Of a stretch of DNA of 64,000 nucleotides, positions 1,755 to 30,105 are shown one piece after another; positions within the stretch are counted from its first letter, which is position 1, and each line of letters begins with the position of its first letter. The stretch lies in NCBI RefSeq assembly GCF_000015725.1, contig NC_008825.1, forward strand, positions 2,046,001-2,110,000, in the 5' to 3' direction. The notes beneath the pieces were generated by a model. The model was not told where the DNA came from. It searched no databases and saw nothing but the letters and a program-made list of their open reading frames with translations. Source of the stretch: Methylibium petroleiphilum PM1 (GTDB lineage: Bacteria; Pseudomonadota; Gammaproteobacteria; Burkholderiales; Burkholderiaceae_C). A program made the position numbers and the translations under genes.

Positions 1755-3102
1755 CGCGCCCAGTTCGCTCGCCGAGTTCGCACGCTCGGCGGGCGCATCG
1801 CTCGCCGCCGAGGGCGTGCACACGCTGCTGGTGCAGTTCACCGACCTGCACGGCGTCGCCAAGGGCAAGCTGGTGCCACTGCACCAGCTGGAGACCGTGC
1901 TGACCGATGGCGCCGGATTCGCCGGCCCGTCGATCTGGGGCACCGGCCTGCCGCGCACCGGCCCCAGGGCCGAGTACTACGCACGCGGTGACGCCGCCAC
2001 GCTGCAGGCGTTGCCTTGGATGCCCGGTGTCGCTCGCCTCGTCGGCGACGGCTTCGTCAATGGCGGCGCCTTCGATGCCTGTCCACGCCAGGTGCTCAAG
2101 CGCGCCACGGCCCGCCTCGCCGCGCGCGGCTGGACGCTGCAGACCGGCATCGAGCCCGAGTTCTTCCTGCTCCGCCGCGAAGGTGTGCGCTACGTGCCGG
2201 TCGACGATGCCGACCGGCTCGACAAGCCGAGCTACGACCTGAAGAGCCTGCCGCGCCAGCAAGGCTTCCTGCAGGCGCTGCGCGTCGCACTCGAAGGTGC
2301 TGGCTTGCAGGTCCTGCAGATCGACCACGAGGACGCCCACGGCCAGTACGAGCTGAACTTCCGCCACGACGAGGCACTGCGCAGCGCCGACCATGTGATG
2401 CTGTTCAAGCTGGCCGCGCACGCGCTCGCCGAACAGCGTGGCTGCGTGTTCTCGATGATGCCCAAGCCCTTCGCCAACCAGCCGGGCAGCGGGCTGCATT
2501 TCCACGTGTCACTGTGGGACGCTGGGCGTTGCCTGTTCGACGCGGCCGATGCCGCCGAGCCACTGTCGCGGCTCGGACGACAATTCGTCGCCGGTGTGCT
2601 GGCCCACAGCGCGGCGCTGTGCGCGCTGGCCGCGCCCACGGTCAACAGCTACAAGCGCCTGGTGGTGGGCGAATCGCTGTCGGGCACCAGCTGGGCGCCC
2701 GCTTACGTGGCGCACGGCCCGAACAACCGCACGGCGCTGGTGCGCACGCTTGCCGGCCGCTTCGAGTGGCGCGTGCCGGATGCCTCGGCCAATCCTTACC
2801 TGGCGACCGCGGCGCTGATTGCGGCCGGGCTGGACGGCATCGACCGCGAGCTCGATCCCGGCCCGGCCTGCACCGACGACCTGTTCGCGCTGAGCCTGGC
2901 CGAGATCCGGACTCGCAGGATCGCGATGCTGCCGCAGAGCCTGGGCGAGGCGGTTGACGCGTTCGAGGCCAGCGAGCTGCTGCACGGCGCGCTCGGCGAC
3001 ACGCTGCACCGCGAGTTCGTGCGGCTCAAGCGCGCCGAGTGGATCGACTACGCCCGCCACGTCAGCGACTGGGAACACGCGCGCTACGGCGCGACGTTCT
3101 GA
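1747..3102 (+). CDS. Glutamine synthetase family ligase (type III GlnT / PuuA-like)
   Basis: A 451-residue glutamine-synthetase-fold ligase. Family signatures are GIEPEFFLL (about 134-142, metal site), DHEDAHGQYELNF (about 193-205), MPKPF (238-242) and GSGLHFHVSLWD (about 247-258). The pattern resembles the GlnT/type III group, whose members include gamma-glutamylmethylamide synthetases, rather than ammonia-assimilating GlnA. Following an aldehyde dehydrogenase and a GABA aminotransferase, the likeliest job is ATP-dependent gamma-glutamylation of an amine such as putrescine (PuuA role), but the substrate cannot be read from sequence. It starts with GTG at 1747, overlapping the gabT stop, which suggests translational coupling. 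Confidence 0.85.
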   Translation: MADAPSSLAEFARSAGASLAAEGVHTLLVQFTDLHGVAKGKLVPLHQLETVLTDGAGFAGPSIWGTGLPRTGPRAEYYARGDAATLQALPWMPGVARLVGDGFVNGGAFDACPRQVLKRATARLAARGWTLQTGIEPEFFLLRREGVRYVPVDDADRLDKPSYDLKSLPRQQGFLQALRVALEGAGLQVLQIDHEDAHGQYELNFRHDEALRSADHVMLFKLAAHALAEQRGCVFSMMPKPFANQPGSGLHFHVSLWDAGRCLFDAADAAEPLSRLGRQFVAGVLAHSAALCALAAPTVNSYKRLVVGESLSGTSWAPAYVAHGPNNRTALVRTLAGRFEWRVPDASANPYLATAALIAAGLDGIDRELDPGPACTDDLFALSLAEIRTRRIAMLPQSLGEAVDAFEASELLHGALGDTLHREFVRLKRAEWIDYARHVSDWEHARYGATF

Positions 3103-3149
3103 GCCTCGCCCCGCCGGCAGACCGAGGCTCAAGTCCGGCGCGGCGGGGC
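3101..3149. terminator. Overlapping inverted repeats after the GS-like gene
   Basis: Two alternative hairpins overlap just after the stop codon. GAGCCTCG at 3101-3108 pairs with CGAGGCTC at 3123-3130, and GCCCCGCC at 3108-3115 pairs with GGCGGGGC at 3142-3149. Neither is followed by a T-run, so a role in termination or mRNA 3'-end protection is plausible but unproven. Confidence 0.4.
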
Positions 3150-3180
3150 CGATGACGCGGGAATACTCCGGACAGGACCC

Positions 3181-4158
3181 ATGGCAGCGTGGTGGCATCG
3201 ATTCGTGCGAGTTCGCGGCGGCCCGCCCCCGGCCCGCCCTGCTCCGCTGCCCGTTTCGCCGGCCGTCGCTGCCGCCGTGGCGGCCGCTGTGCCGCGGCTG
3301 GACCTCGATGACCCGCTCGACGAACTGGCAGCCCCACCGCTGCTGCCCTGGCTGCTGGCGCTCGAGTCGGTCGTGGAGCAGGCCGACCCGACCCTGCAGG
3401 AGCGGCGCGCGCTGCGCGTCGTCGATGCGCTGATCCAGCGCCCCGAGGCGCCGCTCGAGCTGATCCCGCGCGCCCGCACCGTCATTCCCCACCTGCTGGC
3501 CCTGCTGCGCCGGCCCGATTGCGCGCTGCCGGCGCTGGCCGAGCAGGTCGGCCGCGACCTGGTGCTCACCGCCGAGGTGATGCGTGCGGCACGCAGTGCC
3601 GCGCTGGGCACGTCCGGTGGCCCGCCGCCGGACCTGCAGCAGGCGCTGGCGCGGCTCGGCGTGGTCGGGCTCAACGCTGCCATCGCCCGCGTCGTGCTGC
3701 GACCGATGTTCGAGTCCGAGGGCGACGGCCTGTTCGCGCGCTCCGGCCCGCGGCTCTGGGAGCACGCCGAGGCCAAGGCCCAGCACTGCCGCGCTCTGGC
3801 CGCAGCCGGTGGCGTCGACGCCTTCGACGCCTACCTCGCGGGACTGATGCACAACAGCGGCTGGACCGTCGCGCTCCGTGCGCTCGACCGCAGTGGTCTG
3901 TTCGACGAGCCGCCGCCGGCGGTCTCGCCGCGCCTGAGCGCCGCGTTCTCGCGCGCGCTGCAGCCGCGCTGCGACGCGTTGTTCGGCCGCGTCGCAGCGA
4001 GCTGGCAGGTCACGCCCTCACTGACCGCGGTGGCCACGTCGGCTGCGGCGCCCGGCGGGCTGGCGGCCAGCGACCTGCCGCTCGCCGCCTTGCTCCGGCG
4101 CGCCGACGCCCTGGCCAGCCGCATGGTCGCCGGATCGCCAGCCGCCGGGGCGGCCTGA
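3181..4158 (+). CDS. HDOD-domain protein
   Basis: A 325-residue protein. After a low-complexity Pro/Ala N-terminus (to about residue 45), residues about 100-260 look like an HDOD domain: an ARTVIPHLLALLRRPDC start, a helix LAEQVGRDLVLTAEVMRAA, and AYLAGLMHNSGW in the place of the usual hydrophobic-GLLHDIG motif. HDOD proteins are non-catalytic relatives of HD phosphohydrolases used in signalling; the second motif here reads HNSG instead of HDIG, consistent with no metal catalysis. It is 78 bp downstream of the ligase gene on the same strand. No output domain is visible, so its pathway is unknown. Confidence 0.7.
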   Translation: MAAWWHRFVRVRGGPPPARPAPLPVSPAVAAAVAAAVPRLDLDDPLDELAAPPLLPWLLALESVVEQADPTLQERRALRVVDALIQRPEAPLELIPRARTVIPHLLALLRRPDCALPALAEQVGRDLVLTAEVMRAARSAALGTSGGPPPDLQQALARLGVVGLNAAIARVVLRPMFESEGDGLFARSGPRLWEHAEAKAQHCRALAAAGGVDAFDAYLAGLMHNSGWTVALRALDRSGLFDEPPPAVSPRLSAAFSRALQPRCDALFGRVAASWQVTPSLTAVATSAAAPGGLAASDLPLAALLRRADALASRMVAGSPAAGAA

Positions 4159-25902: not shown

Positions 25903-25925
25903 TCATCGCTCGCTACGATGCGCCC

Positions 25926-26846
25926 ATGTGCTTCTCTGCCCAGCTCGTAGACGCCTACCGTCAGCACTGCCGCCGCTGGGGCGCCTTCATCTCCTTGGAG
26001 GAGTTCAAGGATTTGTATGGGCCTGCGTTCAGCGATAGACGCAAGGTCCCCAAGATGATCGACCAGTTTTTCGCCGATCCTCAGACCGACGACGAGCGGG
26101 CCATCAAGACACTGATCGACCAGCGCAACGCCGAGCTGGCCACCGAGCACGAGCAGGAGCTGTTCAAGCAGCGCACGAGGCTGGCCGACGCCGAACGCAA
26201 GCTCGCGGTCAAAGAGACCAAGGCCGCCGCCGAGAGCAAGCGCATTGCAACGGACAAGGTCGAGGCGCTGAAGCGCAAGCTCGATGACTTGCGCCGCACC
26301 GAGCCCAAGGATCGCGATGCGCGGATCTTCCCCGGCATCTACGCGCCGGTGATCGTCAGCGAGGGCGGCAAGCTCGTGGTGAAGCCGATGCGCTACCAGT
26401 GCCGCCCAGCCGGCAAGCCGGCGTTCTACGACATCAAGTACCCGGGCACGTACAACGCCCGCAGGGACAACCTCGAAGGCTTCTGGAAGGGCCAGTTCGG
26501 CCACACCCACGGGCTCATGATCGTCAAGACCTTCTACGAGAACGTCGACCGCGACGGCAAGAACGTGGTGCTGCAGTTCACCCCCGACGACCGGGAGCCG
26601 ATGCTGGTGGCGTGCCTGTGGTCACGGTGGACCGGAAAGGACGAACCGGATCTGCTGAGCTTCGCCGCGATCACCGACGACCCACCGCCCGAGGTGGCCG
26701 CTGCGGGGCACGACCGCTGCATCGTGCAGATCAAGCCCGAGAACGTTGCGGCCTGGCTCAATCCTGACCCGAGGAATCTGGCGGCCAGCTACGCGATCCT
26801 CGATGACCGACCGCGGCCCTACTACGAGCATCGCTTGGCTGCTTGA
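25926..26846 (+). CDS. SRAP-family (HMCES/YedK-type) protein with coiled-coil insertion
   Basis: 306 residues. SRAP proteins covalently cap abasic sites in single-stranded DNA through Cys2. All four active-site positions can be matched: C2 (MCFSAQ), N177 in TYNARRD, E205 in FYEN and H262 in GHDRCIV, corresponding to the NARxE, FYEW and HxRMP motifs. Unusual are a charged coiled-coil-like insertion (about residues 55-125: many K, E, R, A) between Cys2 and the core, and weakened motifs (FYEN, HDRC). ATG is fixed by the need for Cys at position 2. A LexA box lies 65 bp downstream, not upstream. Overall family call is good; activity is inferred. Confidence 0.82.
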   Translation: MCFSAQLVDAYRQHCRRWGAFISLEEFKDLYGPAFSDRRKVPKMIDQFFADPQTDDERAIKTLIDQRNAELATEHEQELFKQRTRLADAERKLAVKETKAAAESKRIATDKVEALKRKLDDLRRTEPKDRDARIFPGIYAPVIVSEGGKLVVKPMRYQCRPAGKPAFYDIKYPGTYNARRDNLEGFWKGQFGHTHGLMIVKTFYENVDRDGKNVVLQFTPDDREPMLVACLWSRWTGKDEPDLLSFAAITDDPPPEVAAAGHDRCIVQIKPENVAAWLNPDPRNLAASYAILDDRPRPYYEHRLAA

Positions 26847-27451: not shown

Positions 27452-27458
27452 AGGCCAT

Positions 27459-27483
27459 CCCGGTTCGACCCCGGGTCGAGGCA
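27459..27483 (+). other. tRNA T-arm-like sequence at a GC shift
   Basis: CCCGG-TTCGACC-CCGGG (27459-27475) has the exact form of a tRNA T arm (5-bp stem, 7-nt loop starting TTCGA), followed by seven bases TCGAGGC and an A, as at a tRNA 3' end. No D arm, anticodon arm or matching 5' acceptor strand precedes it. It stands where GC content drops, so it may be an attachment-site scar or chance. Confidence 0.3.
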
Positions 27484-27671
27484 CACGCCGGGCTTGAGGT
27501 CTACAAGGGAAAATCTGTCGAAGTATGTGAATCGCAAAACCCATATGCAGCGAACAGGCGACGAACTACTTCATATCGGCAGACTCAGTTGTGAGATGGG
27601 CCACAAATGTGGAAAATCGCAGATGGGAGAGCGGCTCCGTACGCAAAAGAGAGCGTGTAGCTGAGCAAAAA

Positions 27672-28343
27672 ATGACAGAAGCAGAGATCCGCGACAGGCT
27701 TATCAAAGAGTTGGCATTGTCGCCGGCCGGTCTCGGTGCGACCTTCATTCCTGAGCTGTTCGTTGACGGATTTTCGCGACGCGCCGACCTCGTTATGGCG
27801 AACGGCAAACTCAGCGTTTTTGAGATTAAGAGCCCGCGCGATTCTCTCGATCGACTTGATGGTCAAGTTGAGAGCTACTGCAAGTTCTTCGAGCAGGTAA
27901 CCGTGGTTTGTGCGCCAAAGCACCTAGCGGGTGTGATGGCGCGCGCCCCAGAAACTGTTGGCGTCTGGACCATCAACGATGACGGAAGTCAGATAGTTCG
28001 AAAAGCAAAGTGCAGCTCACCTACTTCGAAAGCGAACTGGCTAAGTTTCTTGCCGGTCTTAGAGCTTCGAAGATTTCTGAGGGCGCAGGGTGGCCGCGCG
28101 CTTGGCTCGCGAGCAGATCTTGTCGAACAAGCGTCGCGGCAGAGCGTGAGCGTCATTCGCGCAAGCGTCCTTTGCTACTTGAAGCGCAGGCACGAGCACA
28201 TCCTTGCCCTTAAGCAGAAGCAGCGTGCGTCAACACGACATGTCGCCAAAGCTGAGCCGAGCCAAGCCGAAAGGCTCGCCGAGTACATCTCAAAAAGCGG
28301 GCTCAGAGATGCGGCACCAATTCCTCGCCAGCGAGCAATTTAG
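27672..28343 (+). CDS. sce7726-family protein, PD-(D/E)XK nuclease-like
   Basis: 223 residues. The N-terminal 80 match the sce7726 pattern: TEAEIRDRLIKEL, then IPELFVDGFSRRADLVMANG, then FEIKSPRDSLDRLDGQVESY (50-69). E29, D39 and E51-x-K53 form the outline of a PD-(D/E)XK nuclease site, with Q65 and Y69 after it as in many such folds. The rest is a helical basic domain. ATG 27672 has only a weak ribosome site, and an in-frame GTG at 27591 is an alternative. Base composition is lower in GC than the core genome. It faces the beta-family gene with one base between stop codons. Nuclease activity is inferred. Confidence 0.7.
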   Translation: MTEAEIRDRLIKELALSPAGLGATFIPELFVDGFSRRADLVMANGKLSVFEIKSPRDSLDRLDGQVESYCKFFEQVTVVCAPKHLAGVMARAPETVGVWTINDDGSQIVRKAKCSSPTSKANWLSFLPVLELRRFLRAQGGRALGSRADLVEQASRQSVSVIRASVLCYLKRRHEHILALKQKQRASTRHVAKAEPSQAERLAEYISKSGLRDAAPIPRQRAI

Positions 28344-28344
28344 T

Positions 28345-29424
28345 TCATTCCTCCGTATCTTCTTCAGCGTCGAGTCCAGCACCCAACTTAGCCGAGAAGT
28401 CGATCTGTCGCGCAAGGTGGATGTTCACTCGAACGGATATCCAAGAACTAGGTGCTTTGCCGTGCGGGGTGCCCCCGGCCGCCTGCCGAATCATGTCTTC
28501 CCCCCAGATGTCTCGTGACCCAATCTCAGCATCCGTAGCAAGGACAGCCTGAGCTGCGGACACATAACCTGCGGTTGCGTCAACGCCACTTCTGCGCTCG
28601 AAGTACCAATCCAGTTGTCGAGGGTAGTCCACTCTTGGTACCCAACGCATAACTTGTGCATCGTCATAAACAACGGAATGCACAGAGCCATGGTCACCAT
28701 ATGCAGCGACTGGGCTTCCACCAATTCTGGCGTGAAGATCTCTCTCTAAGATGTCGATAGATCCTCTTTGCTGCTGTTGGTCTCGCCCGGCAAATGACAG
28801 CGTCGATGATGGAAAACTTGTAGACAAAACAACAATCATCAATTCCGGATACTCAATCCGCAATTGATTGATTGAAGCAATTGTTGCAGTCGCATAGGCA
28901 GATAGAGCGCTTCGAATGTACTGGCAGTCGATGAACACAATCGCATTTCGTGGGTTGTCAAGCGCACTCAACGCATTAACCACCATCGCGGTTTCCGCAG
29001 AGAATTCTTTGATTCTGAACGCCACTTTTCCAACAGCGCGCTCTATCTCTTGCGCCTGCTTGGTCACATCACGGACTCGCGCGCCTGAAACAATCTGAAC
29101 TACTGGTATCGCTCGTGGATATTGAGCAGTGAACCTCCGCCATGCTTCAAAAGCCCCGACTGGATTCCTTAGCGCCAGTTGCTGATCTGCTAGGTGATTG
29201 CCGTCGGTTGTCAGATCGAGAAAGTAGGGCAAATCTGGCATTGCCGCTGCCGCCCTCTCTGCTGATTTGACGAAGTCAATCGCCTTCGGCCAGCGGCCAA
29301 GCGTTAGCAACGGCACGATTTGGCGCTTGCGGTAAGGATCCAACATTTCTAGACCCTTCAACTCCGCCTGCCTCGTACGCAGCGTCGGGTAGTACGAATA
29401 GCCATCAAAAGAAATGTTTATCAC
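28345..29424 (-). CDS. Beta/sce7725-family protein
   Basis: 359 residues beginning with the family's hallmark YYPTLRTRQAELKGLEML (about 11-28) and continuing RQIVPLLTLGRW. These features match the beta-protein/sce7725 group, found in scattered bacteria and phages, often beside sce7726 genes; the biochemical role is not known to me. Sequence shows alternating strands and helices compatible with a TIM-barrel-like fold (inference). It starts with GTG at 29424, inside the stop region of the upstream membrane-protein gene (GTGA overlap), so the two are translationally coupled. Low-GC codon use differs from neighbours, indicating transfer. Confidence 0.7.
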   Translation of the reverse strand: MINISFDGYSYYPTLRTRQAELKGLEMLDPYRKRQIVPLLTLGRWPKAIDFVKSAERAAAAMPDLPYFLDLTTDGNHLADQQLALRNPVGAFEAWRRFTAQYPRAIPVVQIVSGARVRDVTKQAQEIERAVGKVAFRIKEFSAETAMVVNALSALDNPRNAIVFIDCQYIRSALSAYATATIASINQLRIEYPELMIVVLSTSFPSSTLSFAGRDQQQQRGSIDILERDLHARIGGSPVAAYGDHGSVHSVVYDDAQVMRWVPRVDYPRQLDWYFERRSGVDATAGYVSAAQAVLATDAEIGSRDIWGEDMIRQAAGGTPHGKAPSSWISVRVNIHLARQIDFSAKLGAGLDAEEDTEE

Positions 29425-29783
29425 ATTGCCTCCCCATCCTCGTGCGGCTGCACGGTCATCGCGCGCGGTGTGGCAACTCGCCCCATTTGCAAAGAAGCCA
29501 GATAGTCCAGTGTTGCGTTTCGAGATGACATTTCACGCTTGAGCCCTTCGAGCTCAACGGTTAGTCGTCCAATCAGTTCGCCATCAGCGCGAGCAACGTG
29601 AAATGCTTTTACCAGCATCAGCCCGTAGATGATCGCTGCAAACCAACCTGACCCAAGTAACGCGTACTCGTACCAAGACGCATCATTTTTCACAAGGAAG
29701 ACCAAACCAATCAAGGCCGGAATCAGCCCAGCAAGGCCATACACATGGTTAAGCATCGCGCCCCTGTCAACGGCCTTGGTCAT
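29421..29783 (-). CDS. Two-helix membrane protein with coiled coil, 120 aa
   Basis: First gene of a two-gene operon with the beta-family gene. Helix 1 spans about 13-31 (HVYGLAGLIPALIGLVFLV region), helix 2 about 40-60, and a heptad-like charged segment (about 66-100: DGELIGRLTVELEGLKREM) follows, so N- and C-termini likely face the cytoplasm. ATG 29783 has an almost perfect GGAGGTGA ribosome site. No family recognised. A small membrane protein paired with a nuclease-like and a beta-family protein resembles effector/sensor pairs of defence systems, but no function is shown. Confidence 0.65.
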   Translation of the reverse strand: MTKAVDRGAMLNHVYGLAGLIPALIGLVFLVKNDASWYEYALLGSGWFAAIIYGLMLVKAFHVARADGELIGRLTVELEGLKREMSSRNATLDYLASLQMGRVATPRAMTVQPHEDGEAM

Positions 29784-29920
29784 CTCACCTCCCCCTTGCT
29801 GCATGCGATTCGAGCGCCTACTTGCGGCGCCCACAGAACCGCACCTGCGGATTGACTTGTGCTCAGATGGTGCTGGACCGCAGCGGTATCCACAACATGG
29901 GATCAAACGTGGGTAGAAAG

Positions 29921-29946
29921 CAAAACGGGCCGCAAAGGCCCGTGTT
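29921..29946 (-). terminator. Rho-independent terminator of tRNA-Ser
   Basis: ACGGGCC (29925-29931) and GGCCCGT (29937-29943) form a 7-bp stem with a 5-nt loop; on the minus strand it is followed by TTTTG. It ends 15 bases after the tRNA-Ser 3' end. Confidence 0.75.
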
Positions 29947-29957
29947 TCCTAGCTATC

Positions 29958-30048
29958 TGGCGGAGAGAGCGGGATTCGAACCCGCGGAGGGCTGTTAACC
30001 CTCACACGCTTTCCAGGCGTGCGACTTAAACCGCTCATCCATCTCTCC
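29958..30048 (-). tRNA. tRNA-Ser (GGA anticodon)
   Basis: 91-nt gene with encoded CCA. Acceptor stem GGAGAGA/TCTCTCC, discriminator G as in serine tRNAs, anticodon loop CTGGAAA (anticodon GGA), a long variable arm (class II) and T-loop GTTCGAATC. The low-GC accessory genes lie on its 3' side, a common place for integrated elements, though the intact terminator remains beside it and no repeated 3' end was found. Confidence 0.95.
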
Positions 30049-30079: not shown

Positions 30080-30105
30080 AAAAAAGGCGCCTCTCGCGAG
30101 GCGCC
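30080..30105 (-). terminator. Strong terminator after the branched-chain binding protein gene
   Basis: GGCGCCTC (30086-30093) and GAGGCGCC (30098-30105) make an 8-bp perfect stem with loop TCGC; on the minus strand six T residues follow (30080-30085). It separates the transporter gene from tRNA-Ser. Confidence 0.9.

Follow-up and report, generated by a model that had tools for sequence, protein, structure and literature searches.

The window analysed here is a stretch of 64,000 nucleotides of the Methylibium petroleiphilum PM1 chromosome (NC_008825.1, positions 2,046,001 to 2,110,000). Between 27.67 and 29.78 kilobases (kb) it carries three intact genes which, on the strength of profile and pairwise sequence matches, we identify as a chromosomal relative of the known phage-defence system gop-beta-cII. 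The sce7726 family gene corresponds to cII, the beta gene to Beta and the gene for a membrane protein of 120 amino acids (aa) to Gop. The cII gene (27672-28343, plus strand, 223 aa from its ATG) matched the NCBIfam model NF033832 of the sce7726 family with 120 bits (cut-off 70) and the PADLOC model cll (PDLC02989) with an E value of 1e-46, and its product is 39% identical to cII of satellite P4 over 181 columns. The beta gene (28345-29424, minus strand, 359 aa with a GTG start) encodes a member of the Beta_protein family, with 255.8 bits against Pfam PF14350, 3e-151 against PADLOC beta (PDLC02985) and an alignment with P4 beta that covers 99% of the query at 43.8% identity. The gop-like gene (29421-29783, minus strand) was recognized by PADLOC gop (PDLC03001, 1.2e-9) and by BLASTP against P4 Gop (E 5e-10 in a single comparison, 134 columns).

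The arrangement of the genes agrees with this identification. Homologues of Gop, Beta and cII are all present, gop and beta are co-directional and cII is convergent with them, which are the features by which a gop-beta-cII locus is recognized. In P4 (NC_001609) gop (247-648) and beta (651-1718) lie on the plus strand and are followed by cII (1746-2540) on the minus strand, and the same gene order and orientation were found in Pasteurella phage Pmp11. PADLOC carries profile models for all three parts. The NCBI annotation of Escherichia coli copies lists 'protein gop', 'beta family protein' and 'sce7726 family protein' at one place, and the P4 version occurs at 99% identity or more in 39 of 5426 complete E. 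coli genomes.

The published account of the P4 system, PMC9122126, is a 2022 paper that we take to be by Rousset et al.; it is cited here, as are PMC9519451 and PMC4936722, for those parts of the text that were available. P4 gop-beta-cII is reported to protect against lambda and P1, P4 Gop is reported to be toxic without Beta, Beta is regarded as the likely antitoxin of Gop, and the authors suggest abortive infection by a toxin-antitoxin mechanism (PMC9122126). Homology to this system bears out the view of an earlier note on this DNA that a nuclease with a membrane partner is an anti-phage layout. That note had also seen a sensor of unknown kind in the beta gene and an undescribed third component in the membrane gene, and neither description is supported: the role of Beta as likely antitoxin is in print, and the membrane protein is a homologue of P4 Gop, which has been published (PMC9122126), modelled in PADLOC and annotated by NCBI. 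The third gene is thus not new, and with this locus a defence system known from satellites gains a chromosomal copy that stands alone in a GC-rich bacterium.

Predicted folds and conserved residues

From its model, cII is predicted to combine a PD-(D/E)XK nuclease with a C-terminal part resembling SAP. In a collection of 17 cII/sce7726 proteins of mixed origin, six residues never vary: E28, D39, E51 and K53, which are the putative catalytic residues, and D57 and Q65. They are likewise invariant in all 16 members of an overlapping set used for modelling, which leaves out viral L064, an open frame without the N-terminal part bearing E28 and D39, as well as L066 and L068, which are near-duplicates of included rows. 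The earlier note had proposed a nuclease with E29, D39 and E51-x-K53 and had tied its case to conservation of these residues among sce7726 homologues; the conservation is there, and D39, E51 and K53 stand, but the first acidic residue is E28 and not E29. In the AlphaFold2 (AF2) model of cII, with a predicted local distance difference test (pLDDT) score of 89.5, the strands 24-31, 36-43 and 47-53 hold E28, D39 and E51/K53, respectively; the predicted nuclease thus has conserved acidic and ExK residues on core strands, the pattern expected of a PD-(D/E)XK-type protein. When this model was compared with the PDB, the best match was 3dnx (E 2.8e-6, the sole match below 0.001), and SfsA bound to DNA was also found (E 7e-3); both have nuclease-like folds. 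The model matched the SAP domain of PIAS1 weakly (probability 0.91, E 0.73). Pfam SAP was found in 11 of the 16 aligned cII proteins (best 1e-8), and a PDB sequence search with cII gave four matches, among them a weak one to a SAP-domain protein (E 0.15).

Beta is predicted to adopt a triosephosphate isomerase (TIM) barrel. The PDB matches of its AF2 model (pLDDT 88.3) were generic TIM barrels, the best being class II fructose-bisphosphate aldolases (E 2.7e-4), and we therefore claim no enzyme activity for Beta. Against a viral library the model matched a Gordonia phage protein without known function (E 1.7e-14, template modelling score 0.72) and otherwise gave weak barrel matches only; a PDB sequence search with Beta returned no match. 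Across 23 diverse Beta proteins five residues are constant, Y11, P38, D70, D166 and D244, and such residues would suit a ligand-binding or active site. By analogy with P4, we propose that Beta is the antitoxin of Gop in the window.

The link drawn earlier between the beta gene and sce7725 holds in part. The window Beta gave no match to the sce7725 model NF033831 at E up to 0.1, matching Beta_protein instead, and we rejected it as a direct sce7725 member. By profile comparison, sce7725 is nonetheless a remote homologue of Beta. With a two-sequence alignment on the sce7725 side, hhalign gave 95.4% and an E value of 1.8e-8 over 301 columns against the 23-row Beta alignment, and 76.8% and 2.1e-5 over 109 columns against a 7-row subset. 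A Beta profile recovered two of three sce7725 proteins (E 0.004 and 0.0007) and missed the third.

Gop contains two hydrophobic segments by hydropathy, at residues ~13-31 and ~40-58, followed by a charged tail, which agrees with its earlier description as a two-helix protein; on the model of P4 we propose that it is a membrane toxin. A PDB sequence search with Gop gave chance-level matches only (E 0.18 or worse). To be set beside the direct matches to P4 is a leave-one-out comparison of 13 Gop-like rows (the window, 11 viral contigs and Pmp11), in which each row was recognized by the profile of the other 12 with a single-comparison E of at most 3e-20; the rows had been chosen by position and a three-sequence profile, and the alignment was built with every row included, also the one then left out. 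The stop codon of gop and the start codon of beta overlap in a GTGA (29421-29424, minus strand), and a ribosome-binding stretch, GGGGGAGGTGAG (29784-29795, minus strand), lies directly 5' of the gop ATG. Both features, noted earlier, are plain in the sequence, and we infer from the overlap that gop and beta are translationally coupled.

Genomic setting beside tRNA-Ser

The three genes lie in the most GC-poor stretch of its size in the window. The GC content of 27490-29957 is 53.8%, as compared with a mean of 68.2% (standard deviation 2.4) for equal-sized stretches elsewhere in the window, and none of the 1132 comparison stretches, which lie outside 27490-29957, are stepped every 50 bases and overlap one another, was as low (z -6.1). 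GC content at third codon positions is 0.51-0.60 in cII, beta and gop versus 0.88-0.90 in three neighbour genes. The drop in GC over three genes that the earlier note described is therefore real.

The right border of the variable DNA is the 3' end of a tRNA-Ser(GGA) gene (29958-30048, minus strand) identified by ARAGORN. Homology on the right side starts at 29955-29958, that is, at this 3' end, in all five other genomes of the genus that were searched, and in one of them (G002) the tRNA-Ser piece is inverted relative to both flanks (L049 7542-7732), the flank proper starting at 30081. In G002 and G003, two of these five relatives, no more than 0.04-0.4 kb separates the homologue of ~22.6-22.9 kb of the window from tRNA-Ser, and these two genomes therefore lack the intervening ~7 kb; G001 has different DNA at the site, which shares one part of the window (23.1-25.0 kb). 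These observations support horizontal acquisition beside tRNA-Ser, as had been suggested for the module, and the low GC favours gain here over loss in the relatives.

The left border of the low-GC stretch is marked by a 30-base-pair (bp) sequence (27455-27484, plus strand) resembling the T arm and acceptor of a tRNA 3' end. A second site in this genome, and sites in two relatives, agree with it at 29 of 30 positions; it is possibly the scar of an old attachment site, and Rfam gave no identity for the RNA behind it. Phage-integrase profiles found no match in the window, the nearest of 15 matches in the genome lying ~54 kb beyond the window end. A P4-like satellite around the module was rejected on this absence of an integrase match, other P4 genes not having been searched for. 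The satellite AH14b is reported to be without homologues of cII and gop (PMC4936722).

A few further features of this region and its relatives are recorded here. Six other open reading frames of the window (~21.5-27.5 kb), scanned with PADLOC, yielded no additional defence gene. A gene for an SOS response-associated peptidase (SRAP) lies at 25908-26846, within the same variable stretch, and G001 has a 92% identical copy in another region, close to a repeat of the sequence that lies downstream of tRNA-Ser. That downstream sequence (29896-29963) recurs at ~90% identity elsewhere in G001 (L048, L073) and possibly marks the edges of mobile segments; the window's own genome yielded no second copy of it. 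Among viral contigs, gop-beta-cII adjoins a gene that by eye resembles P2 gene D in L031/L068 and in L053.

Partners of Beta and cII in other loci

Scanning IMG/VR with the cII alignment yielded 16 viral contigs, in all of which beta is convergent with cII. A Gop-like gene lies directly upstream of beta in 13 of the 16, so that the membrane gene does accompany the other two in other genomes, a point on which the earlier note had staked its three-gene module. A viral scan with three Beta proteins from Xre-peptidase loci gave no match, and a scan of genome contigs with the window Beta found Caballeronia pedi alone; alignments that covered Beta more broadly (A5 and A7) were too heterogeneous for scanning.

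Beta and cII also occur together in whole genomes. Among 369 sampled genomes, the window's own included, eight have Beta_protein and eight have sce7726; five have both, and in all five the genes are adjacent. With genomes treated as independent, the hypergeometric probability of this co-occurrence is 5.5e-8; it is 1.6e-6 when the genome of the window is set aside. In the class sample three sce7726 genes were without Beta_protein, and each was followed by sce7725 (truncated in L085). Full-length Beta genes were found at 24 genomic loci, a count that excludes nine Beta matches (L011-L015, L028, L030, L082 and L083) which are fragments, split genes, at contig ends or weak and which had no cII or gop in the available flanking DNA. 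At 16 of the 24 loci cII is next to beta; the eight without cII are all of the peptidase kind. At 17 of the 24 the gene directly upstream of beta encodes an M78 (ImmA/IrrE) peptidase, which may or may not carry an Xre-type domain; at one, the window's own, it is gop; and six have neither within the flank available. As the flanks of whole-genome loci extend to at most 1.5 kb, counts of missing partners are upper bounds. The 19 upstream peptidases scanned, among them a second L081 copy and the one that precedes the split Beta of L014, all matched PF06114, and 18 of the 19 matched PADLOC PD-Lambda-2_B and 18 CapP.

The placement of beta and cII is close to fixed. In the window they stand tail to tail with 1 bp between their stop codons and no overlap. 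They are convergent at all 35 loci holding both genes, a set that includes the window (28341-28347), L002, L005, L008 and L053-L068, with stops ranging from 27 bp apart to 135 bp overlapping; the 3' ends overlap at 22 of the 35, by 4-135 bp. The length of the overlap varies and the arrangement is constant, even though Beta identity to the window's protein drops to ~14%. These loci were picked for holding both genes, so the eight genomic loci without cII and the tandem sce7726-sce7725 loci, the exception to convergence, fall outside the count, and several are near-copies of one another (relatives of P4; Pmp11 and L063). Shared ancestry explains part of the constancy. By a small yardstick, the overlap is uncommon: a count by eye over 100 kb of a single E. 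coli chromosome gave no overlap among seven intact convergent gene pairs, after three pairs with a pseudogene, one of them overlapping, had been dropped.

Two neighbourhoods are worth describing separately. On longer DNA around L005 (L072, 7032-11575), from a relative of the same genus, beta-cII is accompanied on the cII side by Xre-like (by eye) and CapP-like genes, and a DarT-like gene stands head to head with beta. In L081 a 173-aa protein (3088-3609) with apparent hydrophobic segments, judged by eye, is encoded upstream of the M78 peptidase and Beta, and is perhaps a second kind of membrane partner.

Proposed mechanism and relation to known systems

We propose that the window module is a chromosomal gop-beta-cII anti-phage system acting by abortive infection, and assign this reading a probability of roughly 0.7. 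Gop would be a small two-helix membrane toxin, and Beta, a putative TIM-barrel protein made by coupled translation from the gop message, would keep it inactive. cII, transcribed from the other side, would act on, or read, phage DNA with its PD-(D/E)XK nuclease and DNA-binding SAP part. Upon infection the Beta-cII pair may change state and release Gop, and the released Gop would cause membrane failure and cell death before phage production. Activity in this host, membrane damage by Gop, DNA cutting by cII and triggering through the Beta-cII pair are what we infer; toxicity and defence have been reported for the P4 set only (PMC9122126).

Several observations weigh against this proposal. Within the module, Gop shares only 28% identity with its P4 counterpart, and its match to the PADLOC gop model is confined to residues 10-66; the cII of the window gave no match to Pfam SAP; and a promoter scan of the low-GC stretch found no sigma-70-type promoter-like site, with 1.0 expected by chance. 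Elsewhere, Beta and cII are found without gop at 3 of the 16 viral loci (L057, L060 and L061), at 15 of the 16 genomic loci that have both and at a Caballeronia locus, L007, where Beta shares 60% identity with that of the window. Because of these loci, Gop is not the sole output of the Beta-cII pair and is a minority partner in the genomic sample. In PD-lambda-2, the third component, PD-lambda-2C, is required for defence and not for toxin neutralization (PMC9519451), and this result for a relative of Beta agrees with a role in sensing or licensing no less than with that of a simple antitoxin.

The loci without gop and the PD-lambda-2C result underlie the chief rival, in which the true defence core is the Beta-cII pair, sensor and nuclease together, while Gop serves as an extra guard, a toxin that kills the cell only when a phage blocks the pair or the pair is lost. 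It can further draw on the tandem sce7726-sce7725 pair, where a remote relative of Beta is found and no gop was seen at three of three loci. It has to contend, however, with the toxicity of P4 Gop without Beta and the abortive infection that the authors themselves suggest (PMC9122126), and with the retention of gop at 13 of the 16 viral loci. Moreover, the 15 genomic loci without gop hold more distant Beta proteins, nine of them with a peptidase in the place of gop, and may for that reason be other systems. We consider this rival unlikely, though it is the strongest of those weighed here.

A plain addiction module, in which toxin and antitoxin retain the island in the chromosome and have no defence role, would agree with the position of the genes in DNA that varies among relatives. 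It would have no need of the conserved nuclease partner, however, and the homologous P4 set protects against phages (PMC9122126), which makes it quite improbable. The least probable alternative is a decayed, non-functional satellite or prophage remnant at tRNA-Ser: the lack of an integrase match and the tRNA-end-like scar would suit it, but all three reading frames are uninterrupted and about as long as those of their homologues, the key residues are conserved, the ribosome site is strong and the coupling is intact.

Beyond the abortive-infection model for the window, the comparison suggests that separately named systems share a Beta-nuclease core with exchangeable partners. In its full form this idea holds that Beta-cII is one ancient sensing-and-cutting core plugged into Gop, into M78 peptidases (ImmA/IrrE, CapP-like) that may or may not have an Xre domain, or into nothing seen, that its tail-to-tail and often overlapping placement is a working device for antisense coupling of the two messages and no accident of descent, and that sce7725-sce7726 is a distant cousin. 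We advance it tentatively, with the odds leaning somewhat against it. If it is true, gop-beta-cII, PD-lambda-2 and sce7725-sce7726 are versions of one system, and the shared core would give them one testable mechanism. Among the matches listed in searches of open-licence literature, we found neither partner exchange between Gop and M78 peptidase around one Beta-cII core, nor the near-fixed tail-to-tail placement, nor sce7725 as a remote relative of Beta, nor any paper on mechanism other than PMC9122126 and PMC9519451.

Three known systems can be set beside the window module. In the sce7725-sce7726 pair (NF033831 and NF033832), sce7726 is cII and sce7725 is the remote homologue of Beta; the pair differs in being tandem and not convergent at three of three loci, with no gop there. 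PD-lambda-2 resembles the module in that the window Beta matches PADLOC PD-Lambda-2_C weakly (1.6e-4), and a relationship between its third component and a P4 phage antitoxin has already been published (PMC9519451). Its partners, however, are a HigB-like protein and an Xre-peptidase rather than Gop, and cII is not among the three components listed in the available text of that paper; the window locus was rejected as a PD-lambda-2 system, the gene directly upstream of beta being gop. The closest likeness is to gop-beta-cII of satellite P4, with which all three proteins are homologous and whose gene order and orientation the window repeats, read from the other strand. The window module differs from it in being chromosomal, beside tRNA-Ser, in protein identities of 28-44%, in the spacing of the beta and cII stops (1 bp, as against 27 bp in P4) and in the gop-beta junction, where the GTGA overlap takes the place of the 2-bp gap of P4.

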